From the NCBI GenBank assembly GCA_022616275.1, contig JAKEFB010000081.1, positions 1 through 45,030 of the forward strand: a DNA stretch of 45,030 bases, read 5' to 3'. This document shows, in pieces, positions 4,433 to 39,021 of the stretch; within the stretch, counting starts at the first letter, position 1; each line of letters starts with the position of its first letter. A program made the position numbers and the translations under genes. The DNA is from Chloroflexota bacterium (lineage in GTDB: Bacteria; Chloroflexota; Anaerolineae; Promineifilales; Promineifilaceae). The notes below the pieces were generated by a model that did not search any database, had not been told where the DNA came from, and saw only the letters and a list, made by a program, of their open reading frames with translations.

Positions 4433-4440
4433 AGTTCACG
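4350..4440. repeat. Dispersed short-period repeat with hairpin
   Basis: An 8-9 bp periodic purine/pyrimidine-biased tract (CTCTGTGATCTCTGTGTC type) is followed by a perfect hairpin ACTTTGGC-AAG-GCCAAAGT at 4417-4435. It forms the apparent 5' end of the glycoside hydrolase-like gene. The same composition, short-period tract plus short hairpin, recurs at 7597-7665, 15271-15336 and 40285-40335. Confidence 0.6.
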
Positions 4441-4484
4441 CAAAGGTTGTAAAGAATTTTCATTGTCTTCCCCACATCCGGTGA

Positions 4485-4503
4485 CGCGATTTGGAAAATC
4501 GCG
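4485..4503. repeat. Palindromic REP-like element CGCGATTT/AAATCGCG
   Basis: CGCGATTT (4485-4492), three bases, AAATCGCG (4496-4503). Nearly the same palindrome occurs at 19420-19438, and a weaker version at 6774-6790, all between genes. A second dispersed-looking stretch ending in TTCAGCATGACGG follows at about 4545-4572. Confidence 0.6.
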
Positions 4504-4623
4504 CTGCTCAGAAAGTGATCGTCCTGATTTACTATGCTGTCATAGGGATGCTTCACTCCGTTCAGCATGACGGGTGAACGTTTCTTTACTCATGGAACGG
4601 CGCCAGCGCCGTGGAGACTCTAC

Positions 4624-5625
<1,002 letters not shown>

Positions 5626-5638
5626 CTTTGTCCTCAAC

Positions 5639-5665
5639 CTCCCGGAGGTTCGGAACCTCCGGGAG
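5639..5665. repeat. Intergenic palindrome CTCCCGGAGGTT
   Basis: CTCCCGGAGGTT (5639-5650), loop CGG, AACCTCCGGGAG (5654-5665): a perfect 12-bp stem between two co-directional genes. The same arm sequence forms the outer stem of the long palindrome at 12492-12567. TTT after it lies on the plus strand, so it is not a good terminator for the leftward operon. Confidence 0.7.
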
Positions 5666-5670
5666 TTTGT

Positions 5671-6750
5671 TCATCTGACCGGCGCGCCGTTCATGGCGTG
5701 ATAGAAGGCGTCGGCCGGGGTGATGGAGCCACGGCGGACGGGCTGGCGGGTGGCGGCCGATTTGTAGAGGCTGGCGCTAAATTCGAGGATCCGGCGGGCT
5801 TCCGATCCACTGACAAACGGCCGTTCGCCCCGGTCCAGGCTGTCCAATATCTCCTGCAACTGGACGGCGTGCGAGCCGGACACGTCGCTTTCGATTGTCT
5901 GCCAGCGGGCCAACGCCTCGCCATCCGGCGAGCCGTCGGGGATACTGTAGCGCCAGTTGGCGTTGTTGTAGCGGTATAGAGCGGTCACTTCCACGGTGGC
6001 CCGCTGAAAATCCAGCCGCAGGTGCGATTCCTGGCGGGGCGACAAGGCGCTGTTGATGACGTTGCCCACCGCGCCGTTGGCGAAACGGACCAGCGCCAGA
6101 GAAACGTCCTCGACCTCGATCGGGCGCTCCAGCGTGGCGGCCAGGGCCCAGACCTCCTCCCACTCGCCCATCAGCCACAAAAACAGGTCGGTCAGGTGGA
6201 TGCCCAGCGTCATCGTTGGCCCGCCCACTTCAGTGGCCCACTTGCCGCGCCAGGGCACCTGGTAATAGGCCAGGTCGCGATACCAGAGCGTGTGGCACAG
6301 ACCAAGCAACGGCCGGCCCATCTCTCCGGCGGCCATCAGCCGCTTCAAATGCCGCGCCGCCGAGCCAAAGCGCCATTGGAAGACCGTGCTCACGTACCGG
6401 CCGCTGGCCGCTTCGGCTGCCGTCAGCCGGTCGAAGTCGGCCAGTGAGGCGCACAACGGTTTTTCGCAGTAGACCCAGGCGCCGGCTTCCAGGCAGGCCA
6501 GCGCCAGCGGCAGGTGGGTCGCCGGCGGCGTGACGATGTGGACCAGGTCAGGCTGGACCTCGGCCAGCATCTGGGCCGTGTCCGTGTACCAGCGGGGAAT
6601 GGCGTGTTGGCGGCAAATGGCCTGCACCCGGCTTTCGTCCAGGTCAACGGCCGCCGCCAATTCCGCCCGCTCCCCCGCCTGCCGCACGGCCTCGATGTGG
6701 CTGCCCACCGCGTTGCCCGTGCCGATGATAGCGATGCGATATTGTTTCAT
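5671..6750 (-). CDS. Gfo/Idh/MocA family oxidoreductase (2)
   Basis: A 359-aa protein. It has a classical N-terminal nucleotide fold ([18 protein letters not shown], GxGxxG present), [14 protein letters not shown] at the second half of the fold and the canonical CEKPLC motif, whose Lys is a catalytic residue in this family. The C-terminal domain contains [20 protein letters not shown] with the conserved Asp and His. ATG 6750 is chosen because it opens the Rossmann strand directly; the 15 residues upstream in frame come from an intergenic palindrome. The gene lies 54 bases after the cupin gene in the leftward unit. It is one of three paralogous dehydrogenases here and a candidate for the reduction or oxidation step that is otherwise missing from the uronate pathway. 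Confidence 0.87.
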
Positions 6751-6804
6751 GGTTGCCTTATTACCGGTGTCGAGCGATTTTTCAAATCGTTGCACGGTCG
6801 CACG

Positions 6805-7554
6805 TCACGGCCGGCTGATTCCCTCCGGCGTCAGCGTGGCCGGATCAAAATAGCGGTTGAGGTGGCCGCAAAATCCGGGCTGGCTGTAGCCGGCCGCCGG
6901 AATCAACTGGTGCTGGGCGGCCAACAAATAAGCCACGTTGCCTTCGTCGAGCCGCTGAAGGTTCTGCCGGCCGGCCTCCACTTCGGCCAGCGCGCCGCCG
7001 GCCAGGATGGCGGCCCATTCGGCCCGCCGGGAGGCCACCCGTTTGGCGGCCAGGCTGTAAAATTGTTTCAAGGCGGCCCGGCCGTCCTCCAGCCCCTGTT
7101 CAAAGGCCGCCTTCAAGGCCAGGAACCCTGCGACGCCGCGGTCACGCCGCCGATAAGCGTCGGCCAACGACTCGACCCGCATCGCTTCGGCGTAACGGTC
7201 GCCATCGGCCAGCCACGTCTCCGGGAAACAGACGACGTTATCCCCCCGTTCCGGCAGGCCGCTGTTGGCCATGATCACCAGTATTTCCAGGTTACTGCCG
7301 GGGTTAATCAGGCGGTGGATCGTCCCTGGGCTAAAGAGCAGGGCCGAATAGAGGGCCAGCTCGACCCGGGAGAAGCCCTCACCGTCAATCATCTCCACCG
7401 CCCCGGCGCCTTGCAGGACAAAATACAGCTCCGTACAGAGCAAATGCATGTGGGGCGTGCCGCCACACTGCCCGTCCGGGCCGGCAGTATCGTACACTTT
7501 CAAACGCGTCATCAACGTCGCGCCGGGCATACGTAGTAAGGAACGAGATAACAT
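6805..7554 (-). CDS. Cupin-domain protein
   Basis: A 249-aa protein. The N-terminal half is a cupin barrel: TPHMHLLCTELYFVLQGAG supplies the His/His/Glu metal-ligand pattern of motif 1, and FSPGTIHRLINPG supplies the His of motif 2. The C-terminal half is helical and contains a long region without a known signature. Cupins of this sort bind or isomerise sugars, or act as metal-dependent enzymes on sugar acids. ATG 7554 follows a GGAAGG-like site and is preferred to the GTG just before it. It is the fourth gene of the leftward unit, between the flavin oxidoreductase and the Gfo/Idh/MocA pair, so a sugar-acid isomerase or epimerase role is plausible but inferred. Confidence 0.75.
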   Translation of the reverse strand: MLSRSLLRMPGATLMTRLKVYDTAGPDGQCGGTPHMHLLCTELYFVLQGAGAVEMIDGEGFSRVELALYSALLFSPGTIHRLINPGSNLEILVIMANSGLPERGDNVVCFPETWLADGDRYAEAMRVESLADAYRRRDRGVAGFLALKAAFEQGLEDGRAALKQFYSLAAKRVASRRAEWAAILAGGALAEVEAGRQNLQRLDEGNVAYLLAAQHQLIPAAGYSQPGFCGHLNRYFDPATLTPEGISRP

Positions 7555-26471: not shown

Positions 26472-26505
26472 GGAAGGTGGGCAAACGGCCGTTTGCCCAC
26501 CTTCC
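26472..26505. terminator. Perfect 34-nt palindrome, possible bidirectional terminator
   Basis: GGAAGGTGGGCAAACGG and its exact complement make an uninterrupted palindrome with no loop bases beyond the centre. TTATTTG follows on the plus strand and TTAAC-type bases on the other side. It could end the transcript of the secreted-protein gene, or be another member of the palindromic repeats of this genome. Confidence 0.55.
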
Positions 26506-27029
26506 TTATTTGTAAGCGGTTGGGGAGCCGGCGAGTTGTTAGCGCCAAACTCCCGGCAAGCCGGTTGGGCCGCTGCCTGTTTCGGGGCTATCCTTTTCAA
26601 ACATGCTCAGGGCAGTGAAGAAAAATTATTGAGACTTCTGAAAAAAGCCACGAATTGCACGAATTTCTCGAATTTTTCTCTGGTATTTCATGGCACTCCT
26701 CGCGGTCTGGATGCTTTTTTCAGTGGACTCATTACTGAACTCATTTGTTACCCCAAAAAGGGCAGCCGCCCATTACTTCAGGCGGCCGTTCATGATACCT
26801 TTATCATTATCCACGCCGCACCACCGGCCGCCATCCGTTGGTCGAGACGTGTGTCGCGCGAGTGGGGGGATTGTACTTTGGGGTGGGGACGGTGGCAATG
26901 CGGGGTACAAACGAAAAGGCCGCCCGGCGGTCAACCGCCGGGCTAGAAAAAGACGCCTGGTGAACCAGGCTAAACTGGAGTTACCCGGTATTGTTCCGGC
27001 TATGTTATAACCGGTTGGCTCCCCGCGTG
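26506..27029. other. Gene-free stretch between the surface genes and the defence operon
   Basis: Open reading frames here are short or made of repeat. Visible content: three 9-mers (CACGAATTG, CACGAATTT, CTCGAATTT) at 26649-26675, and a two-hairpin repeat at 26922-26970. The rest shows no gene, tRNA or transposase. It marks the left boundary of the lower-GC operon. Confidence 0.6.
26922..26970 (+). repeat. Double-hairpin repeat, copy 1
   Basis: Hairpin 1: GCCCGGCGGT-CA-ACCGCCGGGC (26922-26943). An 11-base linker beginning TAG follows. Hairpin 2: GCCTGGT-GA-ACCAGGC (26955-26970). The geometry equals that at 42634-42684, although the stem sequences differ. Confidence 0.7.
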
Positions 27030-27836
27030 TTAGTAGAGGGGAATCGTATGATCTGTTTCAAGAGCCTGCCGCAACCTATCATATAGTTCGGTCACGAAAT
27101 CCTCAAGCCCGTTAAAACATTCCTCTACAAACTCTTTAAGGACGACATCTCGTGGTGGAGTGAAAAAATCTTGATTGAGCCTGAGTTCTTGAAGGTCGGG
27201 AGAAAAATGCAAACTACTATCTTCAACATAGCGACAGATGCGTGTAATTTGTTGGTGTGTGGTTGCATTTCTAATGTCTTTGAGCGGCTTTATCCATAGA
27301 ACACTACTTGGATTACCAGGACGATATTGCATTAAAAAATTATACGTTGTCGTCGCTCGTGTTTGGAGATCGTCCGTAACGTTGGCAAAACTTATTTGAA
27401 TACTCCTACTCTTGCCTGATGAAGTTACTTCAGTACGTGGAAGGTTTAAGTCATACATATCTTTTAGTAGGTGTCCGCAGACGTCAAGCAAAGAAAATGA
27501 AGCTCCTGTCATTGCCTCTAAGAAAAAGGTGAGAAAGAGAACGTAGTCATCGTAATCATGCATCCTGAAAATACAGCGTTGTTTATATTGGGCTGTTCTT
27601 GGCAAATCCGTCGTGTCAAAGAGCTTATACCGATGCTTCCTGAAATCTTCTGCGTTCATCTCTTGGATAAGTCCTGCGTTATAGCGCACAATATTAAGCT
27701 TGTGGTCAATCGAGTAAACGCTATTTTCAATATCCTCTCGCTGCCTAGGACTACTAGCATAAGTTTCGACAGCATGTAAAAAGGGGGAACTGAGTTTGAG
27801 GATGGGGCCATTGCCATACAGTCCATTGGCTGCCAT
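27030..27836 (-). CDS. Putative HEPN-type protein, last gene of the defence operon
   Basis: A 268-aa protein of no recognised family. Its clearest feature is WIKPLKDIRNATTHQQI (181-197), in which RNATTH (189-194) matches the Rx4H active-site motif of HEPN ribonucleases, sitting where HEPN proteins have it, in the second long helix. The region before it (about 93-125) is helical with an FLEAMTGASFSLLDV stretch, also fitting a HEPN four-helix bundle. The C-terminal part has another predicted helix pair. The gene starts three bases after the stop of the FtsK-like ATPase gene, so the two are translated together. If HEPN is right, it would be the RNA-cutting effector; alternatively it is a structural subunit that kept the fold. 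No antitoxin follows. Confidence 0.55.
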   Translation of the reverse strand: MAANGLYGNGPILKLSSPFLHAVETYASSPRQREDIENSVYSIDHKLNIVRYNAGLIQEMNAEDFRKHRYKLFDTTDLPRTAQYKQRCIFRMHDYDDYVLFLTFFLEAMTGASFSLLDVCGHLLKDMYDLNLPRTEVTSSGKSRSIQISFANVTDDLQTRATTTYNFLMQYRPGNPSSVLWIKPLKDIRNATTHQQITRICRYVEDSSLHFSPDLQELRLNQDFFTPPRDVVLKEFVEECFNGLEDFVTELYDRLRQALETDHTIPLY

Positions 27837-27839
27837 GCC

Positions 27840-30800
27840 TTAGTTCTCCGGGTTGTCCAGCAAGTCCACGAATTCATCGTATGAAGCGTAGTAGCCTTGT
27901 AGACGTTGCACTTCATTATTCACCGCCACGAGCATGTCGCCCTGTCCCAACAGGTTCTCTGCACCGGGGCGATCCAAGACAGTGCGGGAATCGATCTGTG
28001 AAGGTAAACGGAAAGAGACACGGGCAGGGATATTAGCTTTAATAGTCCCTGTGATAACCTCAGTTGTTGGCCGTTGTGTGGCAATGACCAAATGGATACC
28101 AACTGCTCGTCCCGTTGCTGCCAGGCGATTGATTTGCTTCTCGAAAGTGCTACGCTCTTTGGGGTTGAGACTCAACATAATGTCGGCAAACTCATCAATC
28201 ACGACAACAATCCAGGGGAGACGTTGTTCTGGATGGCGGCGGTTGTATTCGAGAATGTTGGGGCAGCGCGCTTTGTGGAGTAATTGAGTACGCTCTGGTC
28301 TCTCCTGTTGCAATAGATTTCGCAAAACAGTGACTGCATCTGCCGGTTCATAGAGGACGCGGCCATTATACAAGTGAGACAAATGGGCAAAGATACCAAA
28401 GTCCATCTGTTTGGGATCAACCAAGATGAGGTGCAGTTGATCGGCCGGATGTTGCCAAACGAGACTGGTGATAAGAGTGGCGAGGAAAACCGTTTTGCCA
28501 CTACCCGTCTGACCGGCAACCAGCATATGGGGTAGTCGGGCCAGATCAAGTTGTACAGCTTCTCCAGCCACATTTTCACCCATAGCCACCAGGAGTTGGT
28601 TGGGCTGCCCGGTTGGCAACTGAGCCAGGCCCTTCTTAAGGGGACCGGTCTCAGGCTCTTCTCGCGCCAGATCAATGCCAACGTAGCGTTCGCCGGGGAT
28701 GTTGTCAATGAGTGGGAGCGTTTTGCTGCCTAGCTCACGGGCGATATCCTCGGCGTATTTTTGAATCTCGCTTAAGCGCCCGGCGGGTGGTTGCAGCTTA
28801 ACCCAATAGCGAATAAAACGTGAGCCAACTTGTGATTTTTCTGTATCTATGCTGGCAATGGCAATTCCGTAGGCGATGAGAACTCGACGTAGTTCTTCAG
28901 CCTGTCTTTCAACCTGCTCTCGCACCAATGTTGTCTTCTTCGGCATAATGGCAGGTTGTTCTGTTACCGACTCTGATGGAGTTTTTACCACCTGTTCCTC
29001 TAGCACAAGACGAACTGTTTGTTGATCAGTTACAGTGTCAGTTTCGGTAGGTTGTGTTGGTTGTAGGTAGCTTCCAGGCAGTCTTACGATGAGACGTTGG
29101 TAGTCGTCGTCCCCAGCGCGATAAACTTGTTGATCAACTACCTGGCTTTTTTCCTGAAGGGCAACGCGGATGTCAAGCAGGCGAATATGGGGCATGTAAT
29201 CACCCGAAAACAGCCCATTGATCGCCTGCGCCCACGCCGCTTTGGTCGTGCGCGTTTGTGACATGATGGCGCCAGGTTCAGAACTGGACGATGCGAAAAC
29301 GGCCGTCGTCAATCTTTCACGTAATAAGGCCCGCCGTATGGGGGTGATAATAATTTCATCGGTAAATAAATGCTGCAATGTGGTAGCAAACTGAGACAAG
29401 GCAGTGAGTGGCTGCCGGGCTTGCGCCAGCGGGGGTACCGAATCGTAACCCACTAACAGCGGGTGGACGGTCATAACGTCTACATGCAAAGCATCTGAAT
29501 CCAGCCAGAAGGCGGCATATTTGACCGCCTCTTCCTCTGCATCATACCAATCCGCAAAACCCTCATCCAGCCGAATCAACGCCAAACCTGCTTTGTCCTG
29601 CTGGTACCAGTTCAAAACCACAAGGACACTAAGCAACTCACACAACACGTCGGAAGCAAAGGCTTGATGATAATTATCTCCGAGCGAAGGACGAATCAAG
29701 GCGATTAAGCCCTCAGGCAAAATAGGGAACAGTTCCAGTAGTCGTTCGAGAATATTCTGCGGATCAATTCCCGCCGGTAGTTTCATCTCACGCAGGGCGA
29801 ACACTAACTGTTCTTGCCAGTACTTCTGCCAGTCGCGCTCATTGGTATGTACTGCTAGCGTTCTAGCCCCGACACGATGCCAAGCTAGACGTCGCCCGAT
29901 GCCTGGCGGCAACTCCATTGTGCCGTGGGGCCAATCAATGATAGCGAACCAGTGCGTGCCCTCTTCGTCATCAAGGAACGGCCGCAAATGTTCTGGATTG
30001 ACACCCTTGTTGCCCACACCTAATACCTTGCGCTGTAGTTCGCCGCTCAGCGTATTCCGTACGCCGGCATACGAATCAAATATACCGCCACCAGGAGCGG
30101 GAATCAGCTTGATAGCATCGCTGATGCTGTCATAGCTTAGTTGCACAGGAATGCCAAATGGAGTTGCTGCTTCCTGCACATAGCGATATGTGTCTTGTAC
30201 AATCGCTTCGGACGGATCGCACAGTAGAATAATGTGCGGATATAGTGTCTTTTCGCGTAAATCCCGCTGAATGTCGTCCAATTTATTCTGCTTCAGACTT
30301 ACCTGGAGTATCCAGCGGGGATTCTCTCGAAAAAGCTGAAGAGCTTCATCGTCTTTGCTTTGCCACACATCGTGCGCGGCGATGCGTTCGTTCGTGCGAT
30401 AGACATACACCTTCGCGCTATACAGCATCTCTAATTTTTGTAGTTGCACCAACTTTTGCAAAATTGGCGAAAGTTGAGGTGGGTCAATGAGTACTAATGT
30501 CAGCCCTAACCGGGCGGGAGGGTATAGCGTCAGAAATCTATCAAACAGGTCGACGAATGACTGTAACCCATCCGCAGTCGGCGATTGTTGGGCGACTGGT
30601 TTGTAATAAGGAATTCCAACAGTAAAGGGTGATTGGGAATTGTCAATTTCGCCCGCAAATACGAGCCGCGCCTCTAATAAACGGCGCGGTGGCGCAAACA
30701 TATGCTCATGCAGGAGAAATGTATTCAAGATCGTGGGTAGATGGTGGGCAGCCATCTTAACAGTGGCTAACGCTTTTTCACCTAGCGGTTCCGGATTGTC

Positions 30801-32528
30801 ATACAAAAGGTCATTCAACCGAACCCACTTCCACAAATGCAAAGGGTGCAGTGGGGTTAAAAGAGCGTTGACCGAAGGAGCTTTAGTTGCATACCATAGT
30901 TCGACAATAACCACATCGAGGGCTAAAAACTGTGCCATTGCCCGTTCGGTAGAATCAGGACTTGTTACTTGTTTTTGGCGACAAATCTGTTGTAGCCGTT
31001 GTGCCAGTCTGTGGTACGTTTCTAAGTAGCTTTGAATAGCAGGACGAAGATTGGGAGCCTGGACAGCTTGATCGGGATAGTATAGGAATAGCGTGCGGTA
31101 GTGGGTCAGAAGCTGACGATGCGTGTGCAAGGTCTGTAACAACGTAACCAAAGTGTCACCACCATTTACATCCCCCACCAACCGATCAAGAGCGTCAAAT
31201 AAATTGAACAGACTATGTTCCCTTTGTGTATCCAGTGGCATAAATGGAATGAAGGGGAGTGATGATGACTCATCGGCAACCAAGCCGGCAATATCCAGCG
31301 TTTCATCTGAGAGATTGTCTACCTGAATACGGCCACCCCAACTCTGAGGGTGTACCCAAACCGGGATAAATTCATGGAGCGGGTGCAGTTCCTCTTTTTC
31401 TGTCGGTGGTCTTACACTACCAACCTCAGCCTGTGTCTGAAGATCTATCAGAACCTCATACGACTCGCGTTGCTCGCGCACTTCACTTGTTTCTGCCTCA
31501 CGCACTCGGATGAGGTCCGCTTCATACTCTTCTGCTATATCCTCGTAGAACATATCAGCGATACGTTCTGCCTGATGGTTAATATTGGCGAGAGCCTGTT
31601 GGTAATCGGCGTAGAGCGGATTGAGTTTAAGGAGTTGGTCAACAAGATAAACAGAGGATGGCAAGCTTCTCGGTTGAAATGCACTTGGCTGTTCATCGTG
31701 TGTCTCATCGGCCGACGGCTCTGGCGCTTTCTCTGCTTTGCGGATATGTATGACCGAATCCAATGTGAGTTCGACCAGATGCTCCTGCGTAGGATTCTGT
31801 GTATACTGCTTGATATGACGAAACGTATGGCGGTGGTCGGTATCACCTTCATCGGCCAGAGCACGAGCAAGCATACGGTAGTCTTTACCGTCCAGGGTCA
31901 ATAGCCATATCACATGGTTCCTGTTTTGCTTAATTCTTTGTGCGAACTCGTAATTGGTGATTTCGGGATCGGGAAGCAGGCCAATGTGGGGAAGTGTCGT
32001 GGCTACATCTGCTGTTTGCAGGGCGTGATAGAGTTCGGCCACCTGGCGGGCAACGAGCGGTAGGTACTTTTCAGTGCGGGGCAGCCTCAATTCATGCCAG
32101 AGTTGCTGGCGTAGGGGGTCGTCTTGCGCCTCTTGTTCGGCTTGCCGGCAGATAGCACGACGTAAATCTTCATCGGTAAACGGTTCTAGCACCTCCAACG
32201 AATGCGTCTTTTCTTGTTGTGCGGCTGCATTCAAAATCACAATCAACTTTTCGGTCAATTCGGGATCGTTACGCCAGCCGATGACTGTCTCGACCTGTGT
32301 TGCTACCCGTGACGCCGAGTCAATTGCTATATTGTCAAAATCGATCAAAGCCAGTCGGATTCGACTTAGATGAGATTGCAGCAACTGACAGAGTGTTGAC
32401 ACGTCAAACGGGGGCAACATATTGGCAATAAGGCCAAGGCGAACCTGGTCAACATGTTCGAGCAGAGCATTGACAATGAGACGTGCAGTTGTCACTTCTT
32501 GACTTATTTCAACTGATTCTGGGGCCAC
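27840..32528 (-). CDS. FtsK/HerA-like ATPase, DptH-like (1562 aa)
   Basis: A very large ATPase. The first 1,150 residues or so lack a recognised motif and read as a helical and alpha/beta scaffold. A region at about 1220-1310 resembles the FtsK beta domain, and the motor follows: Walker A GQTGSGKT (1339-1346), Walker B VVVIDEFAD (1441-1449), and IATQRPTTEVITGTIKAN (1483-1500) with the FtsK-type QRP sensor; LDRPGAENLLGQGDML lies near the end. Length, C-terminal motor and operon position (third in a three-gene ATPase/adaptor/ATPase module) match DptH/DndH of phosphorothioation-dependent restriction. The GTG start at 32528 has GGAGGG five bases upstream. It would act as DNA translocase. The specific DptH orthology is inferred. 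Confidence 0.8.
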   Translation of the reverse strand: MAPESVEISQEVTTARLIVNALLEHVDQVRLGLIANMLPPFDVSTLCQLLQSHLSRIRLALIDFDNIAIDSASRVATQVETVIGWRNDPELTEKLIVILNAAAQQEKTHSLEVLEPFTDEDLRRAICRQAEQEAQDDPLRQQLWHELRLPRTEKYLPLVARQVAELYHALQTADVATTLPHIGLLPDPEITNYEFAQRIKQNRNHVIWLLTLDGKDYRMLARALADEGDTDHRHTFRHIKQYTQNPTQEHLVELTLDSVIHIRKAEKAPEPSADETHDEQPSAFQPRSLPSSVYLVDQLLKLNPLYADYQQALANINHQAERIADMFYEDIAEEYEADLIRVREAETSEVREQRESYEVLIDLQTQAEVGSVRPPTEKEELHPLHEFIPVWVHPQSWGGRIQVDNLSDETLDIAGLVADESSSLPFIPFMPLDTQREHSLFNLFDALDRLVGDVNGGDTLVTLLQTLHTHRQLLTHYRTLFLYYPDQAVQAPNLRPAIQSYLETYHRLAQRLQQICRQKQVTSPDSTERAMAQFLALDVVIVELWYATKAPSVNALLTPLHPLHLWKWVRLNDLLYDNPEPLGEKALATVKMAAHHLPTILNTFLLHEHMFAPPRRLLEARLVFAGEIDNSQSPFTVGIPYYKPVAQQSPTADGLQSFVDLFDRFLTLYPPARLGLTLVLIDPPQLSPILQKLVQLQKLEMLYSAKVYVYRTNERIAAHDVWQSKDDEALQLFRENPRWILQVSLKQNKLDDIQRDLREKTLYPHIILLCDPSEAIVQDTYRYVQEAATPFGIPVQLSYDSISDAIKLIPAPGGGIFDSYAGVRNTLSGELQRKVLGVGNKGVNPEHLRPFLDDEEGTHWFAIIDWPHGTMELPPGIGRRLAWHRVGARTLAVHTNERDWQKYWQEQLVFALREMKLPAGIDPQNILERLLELFPILPEGLIALIRPSLGDNYHQAFASDVLCELLSVLVVLNWYQQDKAGLALIRLDEGFADWYDAEEEAVKYAAFWLDSDALHVDVMTVHPLLVGYDSVPPLAQARQPLTALSQFATTLQHLFTDEIIITPIRRALLRERLTTAVFASSSSEPGAIMSQTRTTKAAWAQAINGLFSGDYMPHIRLLDIRVALQEKSQVVDQQVYRAGDDDYQRLIVRLPGSYLQPTQPTETDTVTDQQTVRLVLEEQVVKTPSESVTEQPAIMPKKTTLVREQVERQAEELRRVLIAYGIAIASIDTEKSQVGSRFIRYWVKLQPPAGRLSEIQKYAEDIARELGSKTLPLIDNIPGERYVGIDLAREEPETGPLKKGLAQLPTGQPNQLLVAMGENVAGEAVQLDLARLPHMLVAGQTGSGKTVFLATLITSLVWQHPADQLHLILVDPKQMDFGIFAHLSHLYNGRVLYEPADAVTVLRNLLQQERPERTQLLHKARCPNILEYNRRHPEQRLPWIVVVIDEFADIMLSLNPKERSTFEKQINRLAATGRAVGIHLVIATQRPTTEVITGTIKANIPARVSFRLPSQIDSRTVLDRPGAENLLGQGDMLVAVNNEVQRLQGYYASYDEFVDLLDNPEN

Positions 32529-32530
32529 GA

Positions 32531-34021
32531 TTACCCTCCAACAGTTACGAGCACAACACCATCAGCATAACGACGGGCGTATCCACTCTGTTCTAACAAT
32601 TCTGCTAACGCTGCGACATTCGTCGCAAACTCGCTTCCGTTAACAGGTGCAATTCCCCAAGGGTGTAGACGATCATTTTCGTTCCCCAGAATACCAACCA
32701 GAATCCCATAGCGATCAGCCCAATGTTCCGCCAGGGCACGCAACGTCCAGGTTTCGCCTTTTGGAATCGTGGCTCTGACGAGTACTTCTAAAAAATCGGG
32801 GTGTGGCTGATAGAACTTATTATGACTTCCACTTAATAATCCAATTCGTGTTCCCAAAGCACTGGCGATACGTTGAGGTTTTGAACTCAAAACTAAGCCC
32901 AATGTATCTGTCAAAGCATTGGCCAAAGCCTCAGCCGGGGCGTACGCGGCCGCTTCACCACGATAGCTTTGGTAAAACTGCCAACAGCTATCCTGGTATT
33001 TTTTTACCTTATCCTGACCTTCCTTTGACTGTGCCTCTTTATTGGTGCGATACCAGTTGATTTTGCTGTATATAAGCTCTTTGACTTTGGGTTTATCTAA
33101 GCCCTCAGGCGTGGCCAGTTGTTCCACGATTGCCAGGATTTCACGATACATAAAAGCGTCAATCGAGCGCAATACCCATTGATAGGAAGCAATGCTGGCT
33201 TGGTGCAATGTACGGCCATTCTTATCCAGGCACAAAATCATTGGAATGCGATGAAGTGGCTTGTCATTCCCGGAGTTGGCGAGGTGTAAGTAAACAGAGA
33301 AGCAAGCGAGTGTGGTCATACGTCGTAAAGTGTCCAATTTGCCGTTTTGATAGGCTGTTCGGGCATCGTTGTGGGCCAGTTGGTCGAAGGCCCTGCGAAT
33401 TTCGTTGACGATGGGATCACTGAATTGGCCTCCATCAATTTGGAGACTGATCGGCGACCAATCCTCATACAACTTTAACTTGCGTGGAATCTTTGGGTTA
33501 TCAAGTGGTAGTGTCAGCACAGAGAGTTCATCATTGCGTCGGCGCGGCTCTTGCTGTAGTAATTCCCGCAACAAATCCAAAGCGGGAGTATCTTGAGCGT
33601 GGCTTAAAATTCTGTACAGCCACATTCCCACTTCTCGATCATGATTATCACTTGTGACATGGCTGGCGTGGCTCAGCGAATAACTAGAGGTTGAAACGCC
33701 CTTAAAGACAGTTTTGTCAGCCGACAACAATCCATGCAGCATCGTCCTCTGTAGCTCGTTCTCCTTAAAGAACCGTAGCGCAGTTTGCTGTTGGGGAGTG
33801 AAACTGCTAAATTCATCTTTGCTTTTTTCTGGATCGGGACCTTGTGTCGGATCTCCTTTCGGATACACCACCCAGTGCTGGGCCTCATTATTGACATATC
33901 CACCACACACGACCCGAAAGAAACCATTGGCTAAATGAGCGGGCTTAATTTCAATAGATGGTGTGTAACCCAACTGGCGCTTAACGATAGCTTCAAAAAA
34001 ATCTTTGCGGAAATCCAGCAT
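32531..34021 (-). CDS. DptG-position protein of the defence operon
   Basis: A 496-aa protein without recognisable catalytic motif. The N-terminal half has an alpha/beta look (IEIKPAHLANGFFRVVCGG, GGYVNNEAQHW), the middle is helical and Lys-rich (SKEGQDKVKKYQDSCWQFY), and the last 90 residues look like a winged-helix (LEVLVRATIPKGETWTLRAL, HWADRYGILVGI, LAELLEQSGYARRYADG). In phosphorothioation-dependent restriction loci the gene between DptF and DptH is DptG, of similar length (about 450 aa); position and size are the main reasons for the comparison. It starts 16 bases after the P-loop gene and ends two bases before the FtsK-like gene. Probable adaptor or DNA-binding subunit of the complex. 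Confidence 0.5.
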   Translation of the reverse strand: MLDFRKDFFEAIVKRQLGYTPSIEIKPAHLANGFFRVVCGGYVNNEAQHWVVYPKGDPTQGPDPEKSKDEFSSFTPQQQTALRFFKENELQRTMLHGLLSADKTVFKGVSTSSYSLSHASHVTSDNHDREVGMWLYRILSHAQDTPALDLLRELLQQEPRRRNDELSVLTLPLDNPKIPRKLKLYEDWSPISLQIDGGQFSDPIVNEIRRAFDQLAHNDARTAYQNGKLDTLRRMTTLACFSVYLHLANSGNDKPLHRIPMILCLDKNGRTLHQASIASYQWVLRSIDAFMYREILAIVEQLATPEGLDKPKVKELIYSKINWYRTNKEAQSKEGQDKVKKYQDSCWQFYQSYRGEAAAYAPAEALANALTDTLGLVLSSKPQRIASALGTRIGLLSGSHNKFYQPHPDFLEVLVRATIPKGETWTLRALAEHWADRYGILVGILGNENDRLHPWGIAPVNGSEFATNVAALAELLEQSGYARRYADGVVLVTVGG

Positions 34022-34037
34022 GTCCTATTTGTCCTAG

Positions 34038-35684
34038 CTACAACGGCTGATAGCGCATTTCGTCACGATGAACACGTATGGTCACGACTCGACGCTGCCT
34101 GTAATCGCTCCATTCTACCGTTTCCTCGGCATAAGCACGGCCGACCTCGAAACCGAGGCTACGCAGGAATAGATCGAGCCGCCGCAAAATGTGATAGGGT
34201 TGCACGTCAATGAGCTTCCCTTCTTTGGCAGCAGCCAGGGCTTGGTACATCTCCCAATCAACACGCAAAGCGGGTGCGCCAGGTTCCCATCTTTTGACGG
34301 CCAACAAAATGTGGTCGCGGCGGATCTCAATCGCCTCCTCATACTTCGGATTGAGTGCGGGATAGTAAACGGTCAATTTATCAGAGGAAATAGATCGCAT
34401 CGCCACGTACCCCGGCGATGGACCGACCGAATAGCGATGTTCATTCCACAGGCGCAGGCGAAAACGATACCCTTGATTTTGCCCCTCTCCGTGCCTAAGG
34501 GGCGCATAAAGCAGGTTAATCATTTCCACGAGTTGCTCAACAGCCTGCTGCTCACCCCATCCCCCCTGTACTAATCTGTCGAAATTTTGCTCAGTTACTG
34601 ACAACATGCGCTGTAATTTCTCTTCAACGGGTTCCACGTATTCAAAAAAGTAACGCCGCTTACGGTTTTGCAGGGATTTCAGGTCAGAAGGTCGCTGTTG
34701 GATTTCATCGTTTCGCCACCAGCCGTCCTTTACCTCGTTCATCCATAGAGGCATATCCATTTTGGCATCAGCATATTGACCAGGATCAAAAGTATCTCGT
34801 AACGCCTCAAACAATTTGTTCCGTGCTTTGGGGTTGTAGAGCAAGTTGTAATAGTCATAGTAGTCATGTGCTTCGCCATCGAGCCAGAGCGCCTCACACT
34901 TAACACCTCCTGTTATGGCAAAAGTAAATAACCCTACCAGGTCACGCATCGTGGCGTGAAATCCGCGCCTGGCTACCAGGGCTAGAGCAGCTTTTACATT
35001 CTTGCGAATATTCTCATCAGAGAGGGCCTGGACGTTATATCGAATGGGACAACGTTGACACCCCTCTGGCAAAACATGTTCACAGGAAAGAACAGAGGCT
35101 AAGTCACATAGTTTATTCAGCAATCCGTCAATGATTGTCTCATCTGTCAACAGTTCACGCTGGCTTAGATCAATAATAAGCAGGTTATGGGTGTTTTGGA
35201 CGTAGCGCGCTCTCTGCTCATCGCTGTAGACAACAAAGTTTTCGATCTCAGAATTAGCTTGTTGTTCAGGAAGCATTAACCGATATAAAAAGTCGAATTG
35301 GGCATCTCCTTTAGTTACTTCCGCTAACCGTCTTAAGGGGGCATGATTGATTGCTAACATAAAAGGATGCCTCGCTTGCCTACTCTGCCGCCACTTTTCC
35401 AACACTTCTACGGCCGTTCTCTGGCTGGCGTCCTCTTCATAGCCCGCGTTTAACTGTTGCAACTCATTTTTCAGTATTTGCATTAAGTGGGTCTTGCCAT
35501 CACCGGGGTTGCCTGTCAGGATAATATCTTTCTTCTCGATAAGCCACTGACGTATCTTGCCTTCCAAAGGTGTCGGAATGTGAATATGCTGTAGATGCGC
35601 AGCATCCACTCGCTCGGCAACGGCACTATAGCCATTGTACAGGTTAATCAGGTAATCTATATCTTGGTGTTCCGACTCTGGCAT
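34038..35684 (-). CDS. P-loop ATPase, DptF-like
   Basis: A 548-aa protein. Walker A is ILTGNPGDGKTHLMQIL (55-71), preceded by a plain helical start; the probable Walker B is NLLIIDLS (167-174). A four-Cys group at 193, 201, 209 and 212 (ending CQRCPIRYN) may bind zinc; RGFHATMRDLVGLFTFAITGG follows in two motif halves at 240-260. This order, P-loop, Cys cluster and TFAITGG block, is what I recall of DptF, the ATPase of phosphorothioation-dependent restriction. AGGAGG lies before the ATG, eight bases after the stop of the DUF4338 gene. It probably couples nucleotide hydrolysis to target checking together with the next two gene products. Orthology to DptF is likely but not proven. Confidence 0.65.
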   Translation of the reverse strand: MPESEHQDIDYLINLYNGYSAVAERVDAAHLQHIHIPTPLEGKIRQWLIEKKDIILTGNPGDGKTHLMQILKNELQQLNAGYEEDASQRTAVEVLEKWRQSRQARHPFMLAINHAPLRRLAEVTKGDAQFDFLYRLMLPEQQANSEIENFVVYSDEQRARYVQNTHNLLIIDLSQRELLTDETIIDGLLNKLCDLASVLSCEHVLPEGCQRCPIRYNVQALSDENIRKNVKAALALVARRGFHATMRDLVGLFTFAITGGVKCEALWLDGEAHDYYDYYNLLYNPKARNKLFEALRDTFDPGQYADAKMDMPLWMNEVKDGWWRNDEIQQRPSDLKSLQNRKRRYFFEYVEPVEEKLQRMLSVTEQNFDRLVQGGWGEQQAVEQLVEMINLLYAPLRHGEGQNQGYRFRLRLWNEHRYSVGPSPGYVAMRSISSDKLTVYYPALNPKYEEAIEIRRDHILLAVKRWEPGAPALRVDWEMYQALAAAKEGKLIDVQPYHILRRLDLFLRSLGFEVGRAYAEETVEWSDYRQRRVVTIRVHRDEMRYQPL

Positions 35685-35692
35685 ATAGCCTC

Positions 35693-37768
35693 CTACAGTT
35701 CTATCACCTGCTGCCTGACTGGGATATCATCGGCCGTTTCTAAAAGCTCATTAGAAAGAAGGTAATCGCTCTTATCGAATGAAGCAACTTGCTCAAGCAA
35801 CTCAGCCTTGTTGATTCGTTTCAGAAACCAATGCTTTGCCCAGTAGTGAGCAATATATTGCATTGTCTCTTTGACTTTTTCTGAGGAATTCGCCTCAAAA
35901 AAGTATTCGGGATCATCTGTTTCCCCGCGCAGGAAAGCATAGGTTTTTCGGCCGAGTGGCACACCATAAACAATCCGTTGGGAATGATGCTGTGTAAAAT
36001 TATTGACTGCCTGTAACCCTATTGCTGACAAGCCTGCGCTTACATGACGCAGTTTAGGATTAACACCTTCTCCAAAGCGGTTGTTTATCAGCCGAGCACG
36101 TTGCGTGTATAAAAGAAGTTTATCTAAGGCATTCCGTGTCTCTTCCGAAAAATGCACTGAACCATATCCTTTGGTTAACCCATACTTCACATAACGCACA
36201 CGGGTGTCCTCATAGTTAAGCACGGGAATAGCGATACGATTGTATTGACTGCTGCTAATAGCATAGAGACTAGTCGTCCCTAAGAAAGCAAGCCTCGGCA
36301 TACGTCGCACCGCTTCACCCTTAAGCTTTGAGGCAATCGTGCTCGCATACCCTTCATATTTGCGCTCATAGTCATAGACCACTTGAGGACCAGCCAACAG
36401 CATGGCAACTAACTTTCCGCCTAGCAATACATTATATGGGGGTATGGCACCACAAACGATTAGATCCATCATATTGATGCCTACTTTACGTTTCTTATTC
36501 TCCTGGATAAGAATCCTAATCGCCTTTCGCCCCTTCTCCGTTTGCCACAATGCGCGTAAACCTTCAACGGTCTCAATAGATTTCTCAATAGCACCCAACG
36601 CCATCTTAGCAGATAACAGTCGGTATAATCCTTTGGCACGTTTGGCCCAATAAAGTGATTCCATAGCCAATGCTGCCAATTCTTCCGGCGGCGGCAAGGG
36701 TTGGTTCGTCACCCCATCAATTCCTAATGGAAGTTGGTTTGGTATATTAGTTTGCCCTTCACTTTCACGTTTTTGCCGGAGTAGTTCAATTCGTCTGGCC
36801 TGATTCTGCTGTTCGATTTTTCGCAGACGTTGCATTATGTTCAACGTGGGTGATTCTGCTTCTAATGCTGTGATCAACCCTTCAGTAGCGATGTCGGCTA
36901 ATCCGTCATTAAGGGTCGCCAACAACATACGACCGATTGTTTGCGCCTGAGTTTCATCAAAGTCGTCCGAAAACAACCGTTGTTTAAATGCAGTAGGTGT
37001 CCAGCCAATCTTGTCGTCTCGCACCGTCAATTGCACCAAGCTGCTACCCAGAGCTGCAATGCCGATTATTGGATGAAACGTCTGGTTGGCATCTCGCACC
37101 AGGTAAAACATCTGGCGGCCGGGCGTTGGGTTGTACGGTGTGGCCCACTTGTAACGAAAATAGCGCCAAACGTCCTGCAAGCGCAAACCTGTATAGATAC
37201 AGCGCGCCTCGCTTGTCACCAATTGAAGATACGGCTTGATAGCGCAGACAATCTGTTCTTTCTGTGCCTCTTCATTCAGCCTGCTAATTGCCTGCAACTG
37301 ACAGGCTAGTACTTCGCCATCAGCCATCAACGAACGAATGGAAACGGAATTGCCAGCAAATGCACGCTCACGCTCCATATAGTCAATAAACTCGCGTACC
37401 GACTGTTTTTGAAATTGTGCGCGGCGCTCCCAGCTTAAAGACTTGCGAATGGCTTCTCTGTGTCGATCAACAGCCTCACTATCATCCGTCACCTGCGTCC
37501 ATACGGGTGGGTAGAGATACAAACGCCCCTGTCGTAATTCAGGTTGCCACTCTTGCCGCAGTAAATCGCTTAGCACACGTAGATACGCTTCGTACTTTAA
37601 GCGTGCCTCCTCAGCATTAGGGTAACGAGAAAGCTCGCTCAAGCAAGTTGTAACGTGCTTCAGAAAAAGAGTTGCCTCATTTTCTAAGGTGGCGAGCAGT
37701 TGATTCAAGTCAGATTCATAAGGTCCGATGGCCTGCGGCCAAAATAAGTAAGGTGTGGTATCAGACAT
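35693..37768 (-). CDS. DUF4338 (Druantia DruA-like) protein, first gene of the operon
   Basis: A 691-aa protein. The DUF4338 pattern is spread over the middle: IYTGLRLQDVWRYFRYKWA (191-209), PGRQMFYLVRD (216-226), PIIGIAALGSSLVQLTVRDD (233-252) with GW shortly after, and PPYNVLLGGKLVAML around 450, followed by TTSLYAISSSQYNRI. DUF4338 is the defining domain of DruA in Druantia antiphage systems. Here it is longer than usual, with an N-terminal helical extension of about 180 residues, and no DruE-type helicase is near. ATG 37768 is chosen (GGAGG close before it); ATG 37780 and GTG 37783 are in-frame alternatives. As promoter-proximal gene of the operon it may be the target-recognition or nuclease-like part. 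Biochemical role unknown. Confidence 0.7.
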   Translation of the reverse strand: MSDTTPYLFWPQAIGPYESDLNQLLATLENEATLFLKHVTTCLSELSRYPNAEEARLKYEAYLRVLSDLLRQEWQPELRQGRLYLYPPVWTQVTDDSEAVDRHREAIRKSLSWERRAQFQKQSVREFIDYMERERAFAGNSVSIRSLMADGEVLACQLQAISRLNEEAQKEQIVCAIKPYLQLVTSEARCIYTGLRLQDVWRYFRYKWATPYNPTPGRQMFYLVRDANQTFHPIIGIAALGSSLVQLTVRDDKIGWTPTAFKQRLFSDDFDETQAQTIGRMLLATLNDGLADIATEGLITALEAESPTLNIMQRLRKIEQQNQARRIELLRQKRESEGQTNIPNQLPLGIDGVTNQPLPPPEELAALAMESLYWAKRAKGLYRLLSAKMALGAIEKSIETVEGLRALWQTEKGRKAIRILIQENKKRKVGINMMDLIVCGAIPPYNVLLGGKLVAMLLAGPQVVYDYERKYEGYASTIASKLKGEAVRRMPRLAFLGTTSLYAISSSQYNRIAIPVLNYEDTRVRYVKYGLTKGYGSVHFSEETRNALDKLLLYTQRARLINNRFGEGVNPKLRHVSAGLSAIGLQAVNNFTQHHSQRIVYGVPLGRKTYAFLRGETDDPEYFFEANSSEKVKETMQYIAHYWAKHWFLKRINKAELLEQVASFDKSDYLLSNELLETADDIPVRQQVIEL

Positions 37769-37914
37769 CTGCCTCCACATCACCTGGGGTTAAAGTTGCT
37801 ATAATTGTACCGCCTTCTGGTACGCTTTCCAGCACTGAACTTTGAATAGTGCCGATATGTCTGCGGAAATGTCATTGAATGACGCCAAAAGAAGTAGACG
37901 GAGTGCTGTGCATT

Positions 37915-38007
37915 ATGAGTGCGGACAAGCAGATTCTTGAAACGGCCGAATTCTGGGAGACGCACAGCCTGGCCGGCTACTAGGATCAAACAGAGCTGGC
38001 CGAATAG
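37915..38007 (+). pseudogene. Broken antitoxin-like gene (FWETHSLA type)
   Basis: A 30-codon remnant: MSADKQILETAEFWETHSLA, then GY, an in-frame TAG at 37981, then DQTELAE and TAG. The pattern FWxTHSLADYWDQTE is the N-terminus of a ribbon-helix-helix (CopG/BrnA-like) antitoxin family common in Chloroflexota and cyanobacteria; the TAG stands where Trp (TGG) is expected and the DNA-binding C-terminus is missing. No toxin is adjacent. It lies just beyond the start of the defence operon. Confidence 0.6.
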
Positions 38008-38062
38008 GTGACTCAAAATCGTGGTATACTGAGGGCGACGCCTTGACTTTGGAGACAGACTG

Positions 38063-38299
38063 ATGGAGTACCAAAAGTATATCATTCGTGACCCGAACAT
38101 TAGCGGCGGTACGCCGGTTATCAAAGGCACCAGGGCGCCTATTCGGACAATACTGGCCAGCCTGGCAGAAGGGGCCAGGGTGGAAGAAATATTGGCCGAT
38201 TTTTCCACGTTGGAGGAACGAGACATCTGGGCCGTCATCGCTTTTGCCGCCGCTTCGGCTGAAGAAGATCTGCCTTTGCCCTCTGTGCCGGCCGTTTGA
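38063..38299 (+). CDS. DUF433 protein (VapB-like antitoxin, orphan)
   Basis: A 78-aa protein. The DUF433 core is complete: YIIRDPNISGGTPVIKGTR (6-24), APIRTILASLAEGARVEEIL (25-44) and a final helix with ERDIWAVIAFAA. DUF433 proteins are small DNA-binding antitoxins, usually encoded before a DUF5615/PIN-like toxin. Here no toxin follows; the next gene is a DUF2442 protein 85 bases further. A possible -10 TATACT lies shortly upstream (about 38023). The orphan state next to a broken antitoxin suggests decay of a toxin-antitoxin cluster. Confidence 0.85.
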   Translation: MEYQKYIIRDPNISGGTPVIKGTRAPIRTILASLAEGARVEEILADFSTLEERDIWAVIAFAAASAEEDLPLPSVPAV

Positions 38300-38384
38300 T
38301 TCAGGTTAGCCATCATGCCGGAACTTAGCCGCTTTTTTGGTATCATCTTCAAAAGATTGAGCCGCTGGAGTAAGGAAGAAAATC

Positions 38385-38657
38385 ATGTTTCCACGGATTG
38401 TTGAGGTGCATCACATCGAGGCGTATTGGCTGGAGTTAACGTTTGCCGATGGCGTGAAGGCCAGACTCAATTTCGCCGGTAAGATTGCCGGCCGGGGCGG
38501 CGTTTTTGCGCCTCTGGAAGAGGTGGCGTTCTTCAAGCAGGTTATGGTAGACCCGGAAGCCGGGACGCTGGTCTGGCCTAACGGCGTTGACCTGGACCCG
38601 GACGTGCTTTATAGCGAAGCTACCGGCGCCCCTTTACCCGTTTATGAAACAGTTTAG
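38385..38657 (+). CDS. DUF2442 protein
   Basis: A 90-aa protein of the DUF2442 family: RIVEVHHIEAYWLELTFADG (4-23), VKARLNFAGKIAGRGG, FKQVMVDPEAGTLVWPNGVD and LDPDVLY at the end, the complete family pattern. Such proteins are often paired with DUF4160 proteins and treated as possible toxin-antitoxin or phage-related components; the partner is absent here. A GGAAG ribosome site precedes the ATG. Function unknown. Confidence 0.85.
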   Translation: MFPRIVEVHHIEAYWLELTFADGVKARLNFAGKIAGRGGVFAPLEEVAFFKQVMVDPEAGTLVWPNGVDLDPDVLYSEATGAPLPVYETV

Positions 38658-38670
38658 GCACCCCAAACCC

Positions 38671-38970
38671 CCAGGCACGGTCATGAGACCGGCCTGAGCA
38701 GTTACAACCTCCAGGCGTGGTCAGGAGACCAGCCTGAGCAGTTACAACCTCCAGGCACGGTCATGAGACCGGCCTGAGCAGTTACAACCTCCAGGCGTGG
38801 TCATGAGACCGGCCTGAGCAGTTACAACCTCCAGGCGTGGTCATGAGACCGGCCTGAGCAGTTACAACCTCCAGGCACGGTCATGAGACCAGCCTGAGCA
38901 GTTACAACCTCCAGGCGCGGTCATGAGACCGGCCTGAGCAGTTACGACCTCCAGGCGCGGTCATGAGACC
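38671..38970. repeat. Tandem array of a 40-bp hairpin-bearing unit, about 7.5 copies
   Basis: Units begin CCAGGC at 38671, 38711, 38751, 38791, 38831, 38871, 38911 and 38951 (last one half length). The unit contains CAGGC, GGTC, ATGA, GACC and GCCTG, which fold to a stem with an ATGA loop, then AGCAGTTACAACCT. Copies differ at a few bases only (CGTGG, CACGG, CGCGG; ATGA or AGGA). There are no variable spacers, so it is not a CRISPR array. It fills the gap between the DUF2442 gene and the cNMP-kinase gene. Confidence 0.95.
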
Positions 38971-38977
38971 GTGATGA

Positions 38978-39021
38978 CAGACGACGGACGATAGACGACG
39001 GACGACGGACGACAGACGACA
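38978..39021. repeat. Heptamer repeat (GACGACG/GACGACA)
   Basis: About six imperfect heptamers of GACGACR type directly follow the 40-bp array. No coding sense. Confidence 0.85.

Follow-up and report, generated by a model that had tools for sequence, protein, structure and literature searches.

The described systems closest to the locus reported here are the DndFGH complexes, the SspFGH complexes and Druantia type I. Rakesh, Aravind and Krishnan (NAR 2024; PMC10853773) treat DndFGH as a standalone defence system, count DUF4338 (DruA) – which they term a GNAT domain – and HEPN among the domains fused to DndF, and read the fused HEPN, NERD, kinase and DUF4338 domains as backup co-effectors; the word 'Druantia' does not occur in their paper. 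DndG/SspG appears in print as a triple wHTH DNA-binding subunit. According to the published account, SspFGH is toxic to cells without phosphorothioation (PT) and a self mark is required; a PT-less cell must therefore restrain or disarm SspFGH in another way. Within the licence-limited literature we found no paper naming DruA with DndFGH, SspFGH, DptH or FtsK as a system, and to this extent the statement in the preliminary description that no described system holds this set of genes survives; the parts, however, are listed in PMC10853773.

The window – the whole stretch of 45,030 nucleotides that was analysed, from a Chloroflexota genome – carries at 27030-37768 five minus-strand genes in the order DruA, F, G, H and HEPN. 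Separated by gaps of 8 (DruA/F), 16 (F/G), 2 (G/H) and 3 bases (H/HEPN), they form a single tight leftward operon, and recomputed coordinates agree with the gene borders and gaps first given for it. The lower G+C claimed for the operon relative to both flanks was likewise recovered (0.484 against 0.606 to the left, 2001-27029, and 0.582 on the right side), and the lowest-G+C 10.7-kb stretch of the whole window, sampled every 50 bases, begins at 27101. PADLOC and Pfam profile matches uphold all five of the original family assignments.

DruA (35693..37768) is a long-form DUF4338 protein of 691 aa (PADLOC DruA1, E 1.4e-145; Pfam PF14236, E 4.7e-32). Its longest frame opens at GTG 37783 and encodes 696 aa; ATG 37768 appears the better start, because GGAGG precedes it and homology to the second operon described below begins there. 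A 190-aa frame at 37780-38352, which overlaps the GTG by 4 bases and lies outside the block shared with that operon, is probably spurious. F (34038..35684, 548 aa) is a DndF/SspF-like P-loop NTPase (SspF, E 3.7e-17; DndF, E 2.2e-6) with a Cys cluster and the Walker A motif GNPGDGKT; TGNPGDGKT is invariant across nine aligned F proteins. G (32531..34021, 496 aa) had been called a generic middle adaptor akin to DptG: the kinship stands, but the protein is better described, from its SspG match (E 1.1e-7), as a relative of SspG/DndG; sequence searches with G against Pfam and the PDB gave no match.

H (27840..32528, 1562 aa) is DndH/SspH-like, although the SspH match (E 3e-73) spans residues 1200-1557 only. 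A divergent N-terminal part is followed by a degenerate restriction nuclease at about 970-1060 and, in Pfam, by FtsK-alpha (1199-1287, E 1e-7) and an FtsK translocase (1309-1487, FtsK_SpoIIIE E 2.3e-39) whose Walker motifs are intact (A, GQTGSGKT at 1339; B, VVVIDE at 1441). The N-terminal part, where an inactive SWI2/SNF2 domain, beta-sandwiches, a TRD and an inactive methylase are expected in a DndFGH/SspFGH complex, matches H in nine of the ten other DruA-FGH loci tested, the second operon apart; its profile found nothing beyond chance in the PDB by sequence (best E 0.34), where H as a whole drew FtsK/HerA-type ATPases and the rest of the operon weak matches only. The HEPN protein (27030..27836, 268 aa) bears an RNATTH motif at residues 189-194 and matches PF18730 (HEPN_Cthe2314, E 2.1e-5) at 25.0 bits, just under the cut-off of 27.1; its orthologue in the second operon reaches E 2.7e-9 and keeps the same RNATTH (RxxxxH) motif. 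Just 3' of the HEPN gene lies a terminator-like hairpin (26955..26970, minus strand), by consensus match only, one of 14 such matches in a region whose shuffled versions yield about as many (mean 13.0).

That second operon (L050, JACSRF010000620.1, from the Anaerolinea sp. isolate CH6 MAG) holds all five genes in the same order, with proteins 69-76% identical to those of the window and nearly the same spacing (gaps of 8, 21, 2 and 3). A single blastn match joins the two, at 27028-37772 and 70.4% identity, with nothing beyond. The grouping is thus not a chance one, since the whole block recurs in another genome and ends at the operon borders, as the proposal that the five genes travel together had anticipated. 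Nor is the operon decaying, given a dN/dS between the two of 0.07-0.11 in four of the five genes, at saturated dS (for G no dS could be obtained). These data bear on another suggestion, in which the operon is what a decayed DruA-FGH restriction system has left behind, joined by a HEPN gene that has nothing to do with it. The nuclease site of H has been lost, as set out below, and two other loci look damaged (an IS3 element after G in L094; G and H in pieces in L093); however, both genomes, whose blocks are about 70% identical in DNA, have all five frames intact, in unchanged order and with near-identical spacing, and this, together with low dN/dS wherever it could be computed, renders such a remnant very improbable.

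In the flanks repeats, as previously described, are present – a tandem array with a 40-bp unit at 38626-39011 and a perfect 34-nt palindrome at 26472-26505. What had been described as toxin-antitoxin debris reduces to one DUF2442 gene (38385-38657) among the flanking proteins scanned. The notion of a mobile defence island is sustained by the shared block but not in its wider sense: no integrase or transposase was seen among ten flanking proteins, and ARAGORN found no tRNA.

Among named systems, SspABCD-SspFGH (mBio 2021; PMC8092258) supplies the top PADLOC hits of the F, G and H proteins in the window (SspF, SspG and SspH), and the FtsK module of H is related to that of H in two loci that both carry SspC- and SspD-type genes (L041, 46%; L040, 39%). 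The window differs in that its operon contains no SspC- or SspD-type gene, has DruA and HEPN in addition, and has lost the nuclease site. The layout had been likened to PT-dependent restriction, and here the genome speaks against the earlier view: the only PF01507 (PAPS-reductase-family) gene in it, which we read as sitting among sulphate-assimilation genes, is 25% identical to SspD over 104 aa, and no SspD-type gene was found with PF01507 as the only query family in a genome 98.25% complete. An SspD-type gene would have been detected, because that of a relative exceeds the PF01507 cut-off by a wide margin. We therefore reject PT dependence for this genome; that of the second operon contains two PF01507 genes, both distant from SspD.

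With Druantia type I the operon shares the long DruA of the DruA1 model; DruB, DruC, DruD and DruE are all absent from it, and plain Druantia was rejected, there being no DruB-E match among the five proteins. A DruE-like helicase (C292) is encoded elsewhere in the genome, on another contig, next to a 1464-aa protein with no PADLOC match. The standalone DndFGH, or 'HerA-FtsK capture', system of the FtsK-alpha ('clade 2') type comes closer, having in common with the window the F-G-H order and homology, an H that ends in FtsK-alpha and FtsK, and no need of modification genes. In contrast to the published cases, DruA and HEPN are separate genes in the window rather than domains fused to DndF, and H is without the nuclease residues that PMC10853773 says DndH retains. 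We propose that the operon is a DruA-coupled variant of the DndFGH type that works without PT – a known kind, with its parts in print.

The nuclease-derived region of H is central to any interpretation. Alignments of H proteins, 23 at first and 30 later, place K1003, T1020 and H1022 of the window H (29463..29522, minus strand) where the catalytic motif should read D, E and K, and no [DE]xK occurs in residues 951-1100 of H from either the window or the second operon. Of the 30 aligned proteins, D-E-K stands in 25 and D-E-Q in one; K-T-H is found in the window and D-T-H in the second operon, the latter thus having lost E and K but, unlike the window, kept D. D and E are retained in 26 of the other 28, the exceptions being L148 (D-T-R) and L149 (D-K-G). 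The alignments thus indicate that the D/E/K site of H, in a loss newly found here, is gone from both operons that encode HEPN, and the substitution rates indicate that H is under purifying selection despite that loss. Nuclease loss and HEPN constitute one event and not two, because the two operons are sisters. The ruined site is, we consider, the most informative feature of the operon, and it was beyond the view of the preliminary description.

A simpler rule, that a dead H nuclease always comes with HEPN, stood at 23 proteins and was weakened at 30 by L148 and L149, beside whose FGH genes no HEPN gene was seen. The F proteins of these two loci bear NERD and kinase domains; L038, L143 and L151 bear the same domains, yet keep D-E-K.

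These substitutions bear directly on a rival reading, that HEPN plays a secondary part, either regulatory or as a suicide backup, and that it is chiefly the complex itself that acts, through a divergent H nuclease or by a non-cutting block on DNA. The published interpretation of the DndF-fused domains favours it, as does the good conservation of the nuclease-derived region (74% identity over 1001-1100 between window and second operon). Against it, K, E, a conserved Q and, in the window, D have been replaced, and metal binding should consequently fail. We regard this reading as possible but rather unlikely.

If H no longer cuts, attention turns to the gene that follows it. HEPN proteins are commonly toxins, and HEPN might form with a neighbour a toxin-antitoxin pair that merely adjoins FGH; yet HEPN closes the operon, 3 bases past H, and belongs to the shared block, in which it has no small gene as a neighbour, and this leaves such a pair barely credible. 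The gene after H differs among loci: the window has HEPN there, L085 and L086 encode an SfsA-type protein, and L090 and L091 a nuclease-like one. This position may serve as a slot for variable effectors. No broad co-occurrence of HEPN and DruA-FGH emerged. The genome holds one PF18730 match, the HEPN gene of the window itself; at E up to 0.01 relatives occur in three of 400 genomes of the phylum, this one included and the other two weak; in the order of the second operon's genome the sole match among 56 genomes is its own; and the plasmids and viral contigs searched contain none.

The association of DruA with F extends further. DruA adjoins or is fused to F in 14 loci, in six of them as the N-terminal part of F, and G or its start comes next in each; besides the window and the second operon, 12 loci combine DruA with F, as a neighbour or in fusion, and are without HEPN. 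The F profile matches 20 of 400 genomes of the phylum sample, this one included; 15 stretches were fetched from 14 of the 19 others (G052, G059, G068, G108 and G206 were left out). In the class of the second operon's genome 193 of 396 genomes 'match', but most of the matches listed are short ones near Walker A (profile about 43-89), which we did not take for F; stretches were fetched there from 11 genomes, and seven of their H proteins were included in the alignment, the remainder being missing, truncated or of insufficient length. Three viral contigs match the F profile, while none of those searched match that of DruA, and no phage searched matches the DruA-F protein of L085.

The window DruA, 71% identical to its counterpart in the second operon, is the sole PF14236 gene detected in its genome. 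The DruA profile matches 23 of 298 genomes of its class, where the other matches are the shorter DUF4338 core, mostly in frames of 300-480 aa (one of 679), and not long DruA. In a tree of 19 rows (one of six short class DruAs tried gave a row; L154 was left out), 12 of the 13 FGH-linked DruAs fall in one group (support 96/98, drawn open), with L036 outside; the AU test does not reject a common clade for all 13 (p 0.151), and long branches were flagged. On haloarchaeal plasmids a DruE gene set adjoins DruA-FGH in four of five cases, in two arrangements, an association newly found here. Drawing these strands together, we propose tentatively that a DruA-FGH pump with a dead nuclease scans DNA and triggers HEPN in a variable slot after H, and that DruA is a recognition module shared by Druantia and DndFGH, which can be joined, as on the haloarchaeal plasmids.

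We know of no established function for DruA. One suggestion is that it is a modification or self-marking enzyme that replaces PT, with FGH restricting unmarked DNA. The GNAT designation of DUF4338 in print (a GNAT-like acetyltransferase) would fit, as would the self mark that SspFGH requires and the statement of a review that site-specific methylation, promoted by a phage protein, allows escape from type I Druantia; the DruA profile, though, has weak matches only in the PDB, the best (E 0.023) being ribosomal protein L18. We think a marking role unlikely; it is compatible with our preferred explanation and does not exclude it.

That preferred explanation, to which we give about an even chance, is a PT-independent system of DNA interception in which the pump has been kept, the DNA nuclease of H lost, and a HEPN RNase taken as effector. 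G would grip and examine DNA together with the N-terminal portion of H, whose FtsK domain would travel along that of the invader; F would serve as an NTP-binding switch, and DruA might provide recognition or covalent modification. Cutting by the restriction nuclease within H would then follow in most relatives; in the window, with its nuclease site being lost, H would be only a translocating sensor, and the HEPN protein would cleave RNA and so halt the infected cell. Gene content and order, co-travel, purifying selection, the intact FtsK Walker motifs, the lost nuclease motif, the HEPN motif and a genome with no detectable PT-modification gene are observed; that the operon defends the cell, that it intercepts DNA, that the complex switches HEPN on and what DruA does are what we infer. 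Counting against this explanation are the sister relation of the two HEPN operons, the degenerate H nucleases of L148 and L149, and the window HEPN match just under the Pfam cut-off; HEPN might also be a backup effector of the kind that PMC10853773 proposes for domains fused to DndF.

If this is correct, Druantia and DndFGH/SspFGH – defence families usually handled apart – are joined through DruA, and a DndFGH-type complex without its nuclease offers a natural separation of parts, allowing the pump's sensing to be examined independently of cleavage. How such large complexes adapt once phages block their nuclease would find an explanation in a plug-in effector slot. In the operon described here, an anti-virus system may have exchanged a DNA weapon for an RNA weapon.

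The window is a complete contig (C283, 45,030 bases) from a genome of 8.53 Mb, 98.25% complete and 5.5% contaminated by the tool's figures. The tight, leftward unit of five genes recognized in the preliminary description holds: the minus-strand genes at 27030-37768 are separated by gaps of 8, 16, 2 and 3 bases, and the G+C content of the operon is indeed lower (0.484) than on its two sides (0.606 and 0.582). In order of transcription the products are DruA (691 aa; start ATG at 37768), F (548 aa), G (496 aa), H (1562 aa) and a HEPN protein (268 aa), with GGAGG sites ahead of DruA, F and H. Two features lie in the flanks. A 40-bp tandem repeat (38626-39011), between a DUF2442 gene and a gene for a cNMP-binding histidine kinase, is registered in seven frames of 146 nt that share 75-95% identity with a reference copy. 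A perfect 34-nt palindrome with 17-nt arms (26472-26505), followed by TTATTTGTAA, is possibly the terminator of the preceding plus-strand gene.

The families first assigned from the sequence alone were borne out by PADLOC- and Pfam-type profiles for DruA (DruA1, E 1.4e-145, residues 21-668; PF14236, E 4.7e-32), F (SspF, E 3.7e-17; DndF, E 2.2e-6), G (SspG, E 1.1e-7; also BrxC at 0.014) and H (SspH, E 3e-73). The HEPN match (PF18730, E 2.1e-5) falls slightly under the curated cut-off; the orthologue in Anaerolinea sp. isolate CH6 (locus L050) scores 2.7e-9, and both proteins carry RNATTH. The SspH match is confined to residues 1200-1557, comprising FtsK-alpha (1e-7) and FtsK (2.3e-39); residues 1-1190 were covered by no model in the profile scans. 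By BLAST these residues are 64% identical to H of L050 and some 20-27% identical to H of nine of ten other DruA-FGH loci tested, the tenth (L094) giving no match.

Do the five genes travel together? When the species-genome collection was scanned once with DruA, a search that reaches close relatives only, one relative emerged, L050, and there the whole block recurs: DruA, F, G, H and HEPN stand in identical order, with 71, 76, 73, 69 and 74% identity, respectively. The only blastn match between the whole window and L050 spans 27028-37772 (70.4% identity), and hence the shared block is the operon alone. Values of dN/dS for HEPN, H, F and DruA (0.07-0.11, rough because dS is saturated; for G dS was not computable) indicate that these four genes are kept by selection. 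The operon is real and conserved.

A critical issue is the state of the nuclease in H. DndH is said, in PMC10853773, to retain every key residue of its restriction nuclease. In an alignment of 23 H proteins – the window, L050 and 21 others – the D and E columns are invariant in the 21 others, K is present in 20 (Q in L040), and all 21 share a further Q later on. The window has K1003, T1020 and H1022 at the D-E-K positions and A for the later Q; the corresponding residues of L050 are D, T, H and T, and [DE]xK is absent from residues 951-1100 of both. With seven proteins added, the 30 aligned sequences comprise 25 with D-E-K, one with D-E-Q and four that are degenerate: the window, L050, L148 (D-T-R) and L149 (D-K-G), the last two from operons in which NERD and kinase domains are part of F. 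In H of L154 (Hymenobacter sp. HDW8), outside this alignment, the motif is intact (D...EVK). Site loss is thus uncommon and occurs also outside the HEPN operons, both of which have lost it; as window and L050 are sisters, nuclease loss together with HEPN counts as one event. Window and L050 still share 74% identity around the ruined site, so the degenerate domain has been retained, probably in a structural or DNA-contact role.

The suggestion of phosphorothioation-dependent restriction was not borne out by a search of both genomes for PF01507 genes. The one PF01507 gene in the window's own genome lies among genes read as sulphate assimilation, and its product is far from SspD (25% identity over 104 aa to SspD of L040; the latter shares 56-58% with SspD proteins from other loci). 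The L050 genome has two PF01507 genes, neither close to SspD. Since SspFGH is reported to harm cells without the phosphorothioate mark, FGH without modification needs some other restraint: either nuclease loss or gating by DruA would provide it.

The families point to a mechanism in which the FtsK part of H would translocate along invader DNA, F would then switch state, and HEPN would cut RNA. PMC10853773 suggests that F may sense invader nucleotides and that domains fused to it are backup effectors; on that interpretation HEPN would be a backup here. Because the nuclease of H is dead we favour HEPN as the main effector, with confidence that is about even overall.

The position after H may be a variable effector slot, given that the gene there differs by locus. 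Window and L050 have HEPN; L085 and L086 encode SfsA-type proteins with an RE domain (E 6.6e-13 and 7.4e-13; 53% mutual identity). L090 encodes a 368-aa protein, matched in Pfam only by DUF7830 (0.0055), which we take to be a CoiA-like nuclease from its RRADI...GVEVQ stretch; L091 has a gene 95% identical at the same place. Against a slot, SfsA proteins are also found as ordinary cellular genes, the L090 and L091 cases are almost copies of one another, and L035, L089 and L092 lack a comparable gene after H.

DruA adjoins or is fused to F at 14 loci, window and L050 included. Six are fusions: L035 and L036 (from 14 genomes examined of the 19 non-own F-matching ones in a 400-genome phylum sample), L084-L086 (a viral-contig collection) and L094 (a Hymenobacter canadensis plasmid). 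Apart from window and L050, separate genes occur on five haloarchaeal plasmids (L089-L093) and in L154, where DruA is truncated by the record start and two genes, one for the nuclease half and one for FtsK, take the place of a single H. Several loci are incomplete: in L084 DruA is reduced to its C-terminal half and the sequence stops within G, L036 stops within H, G and H are fragmented in L093, and in L094 an IS3 element follows G, before H-like pieces. L094 also encodes a TmtA-like protein (2703-7436; E 4.9e-262), divergent from the fusion.

A DruA match occurs in 14 plasmid records, in seven of which F adjoins DruA; the others (L095-L099, L155, L156) have no F by BLAST. Of these, the Paracoccus and Leisingera plasmids carry DruE1, that of Nitrosococcus a helicase 36% identical to DruE of L090, and those of Pseudomonas putida and Meiothermus a DEAD/DEAH helicase by annotation only; two from Roseivivax have no helicase within the stretch seen. 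In the Rhodobacterales plasmids L095, L096 and L097 an ATP-binding gene matching MzaB (scanned in the first two, from annotation in L097) precedes a long DruA, followed in L095 and L097 by a DruE1 helicase.

DruA-FGH and a DruE set share four of the five haloarchaeal plasmids, in two arrangements. In L090, DruA-F-G-H is divergent from three genes: the last encodes a 1807-aa helicase (DruE1, 1568.8 bits), the neighbouring 608-aa product has a weak match to DruD (7e-6), and a 413-aa gene has no match. The set recurs in L091 and L092 with helicases 97-98% identical, so the three are near copies. In Natribaculum longum (L089/L160) a more diverged set (helicase 57%, other two genes 33-37% identical) lies on the opposite side, downstream of H and in convergent orientation; Halobaculum (L093), with an apparently broken cassette, has none in the stretches seen. 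The window's own genome encodes, on contig C292 (L108, 3801-13161), a 1647-aa DruE-like helicase (DruE1, 648.7 bits) adjoining a 1464-aa protein for which PADLOC gives no match, a pair like a Druantia or ARMADA system of unclear type.

FGH operons vary more widely. Of 15 phylum-sample stretches, two have DruA-F fusions; in nine, F is fused to NERD-kinase domains (recognized by Pfam in L038 and by BLAST against L038 in the other eight); and in four, F is preceded by SspC- and SspD-type genes (L040 through a profile match, the remaining three through BLAST). In a second sample F of L143, L148, L149 and L151 has NERD and kinase domains. The ATPase part of H shares 67% (L143) and 60% (L145) identity with its counterpart in L035; the remaining listed match, over the N-terminal part, is to L038, and an ATPase exchange is likely. 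Judged from such sequences the H ATPase is an exchangeable part, in agreement with the 'capture' theme of PMC10853773.

The claim that no described system has this set stands in part. Within the accessible text of PubMed Central papers under certain licences we found no description of DruA-FGH as a system or of the five-gene set, but PMC10853773, in which the word Druantia does not appear, already describes DndF fused to DUF4338, there called a GNAT domain, and to HEPN, given as an RNase domain. The operon is probably a defence system, and it belongs with DndFGH rather than being a new kind. What is new is a ruined nuclease together with a HEPN gene, the possibility of a variable slot, and, in haloarchaea, the physical association of DruA-FGH with DruE.
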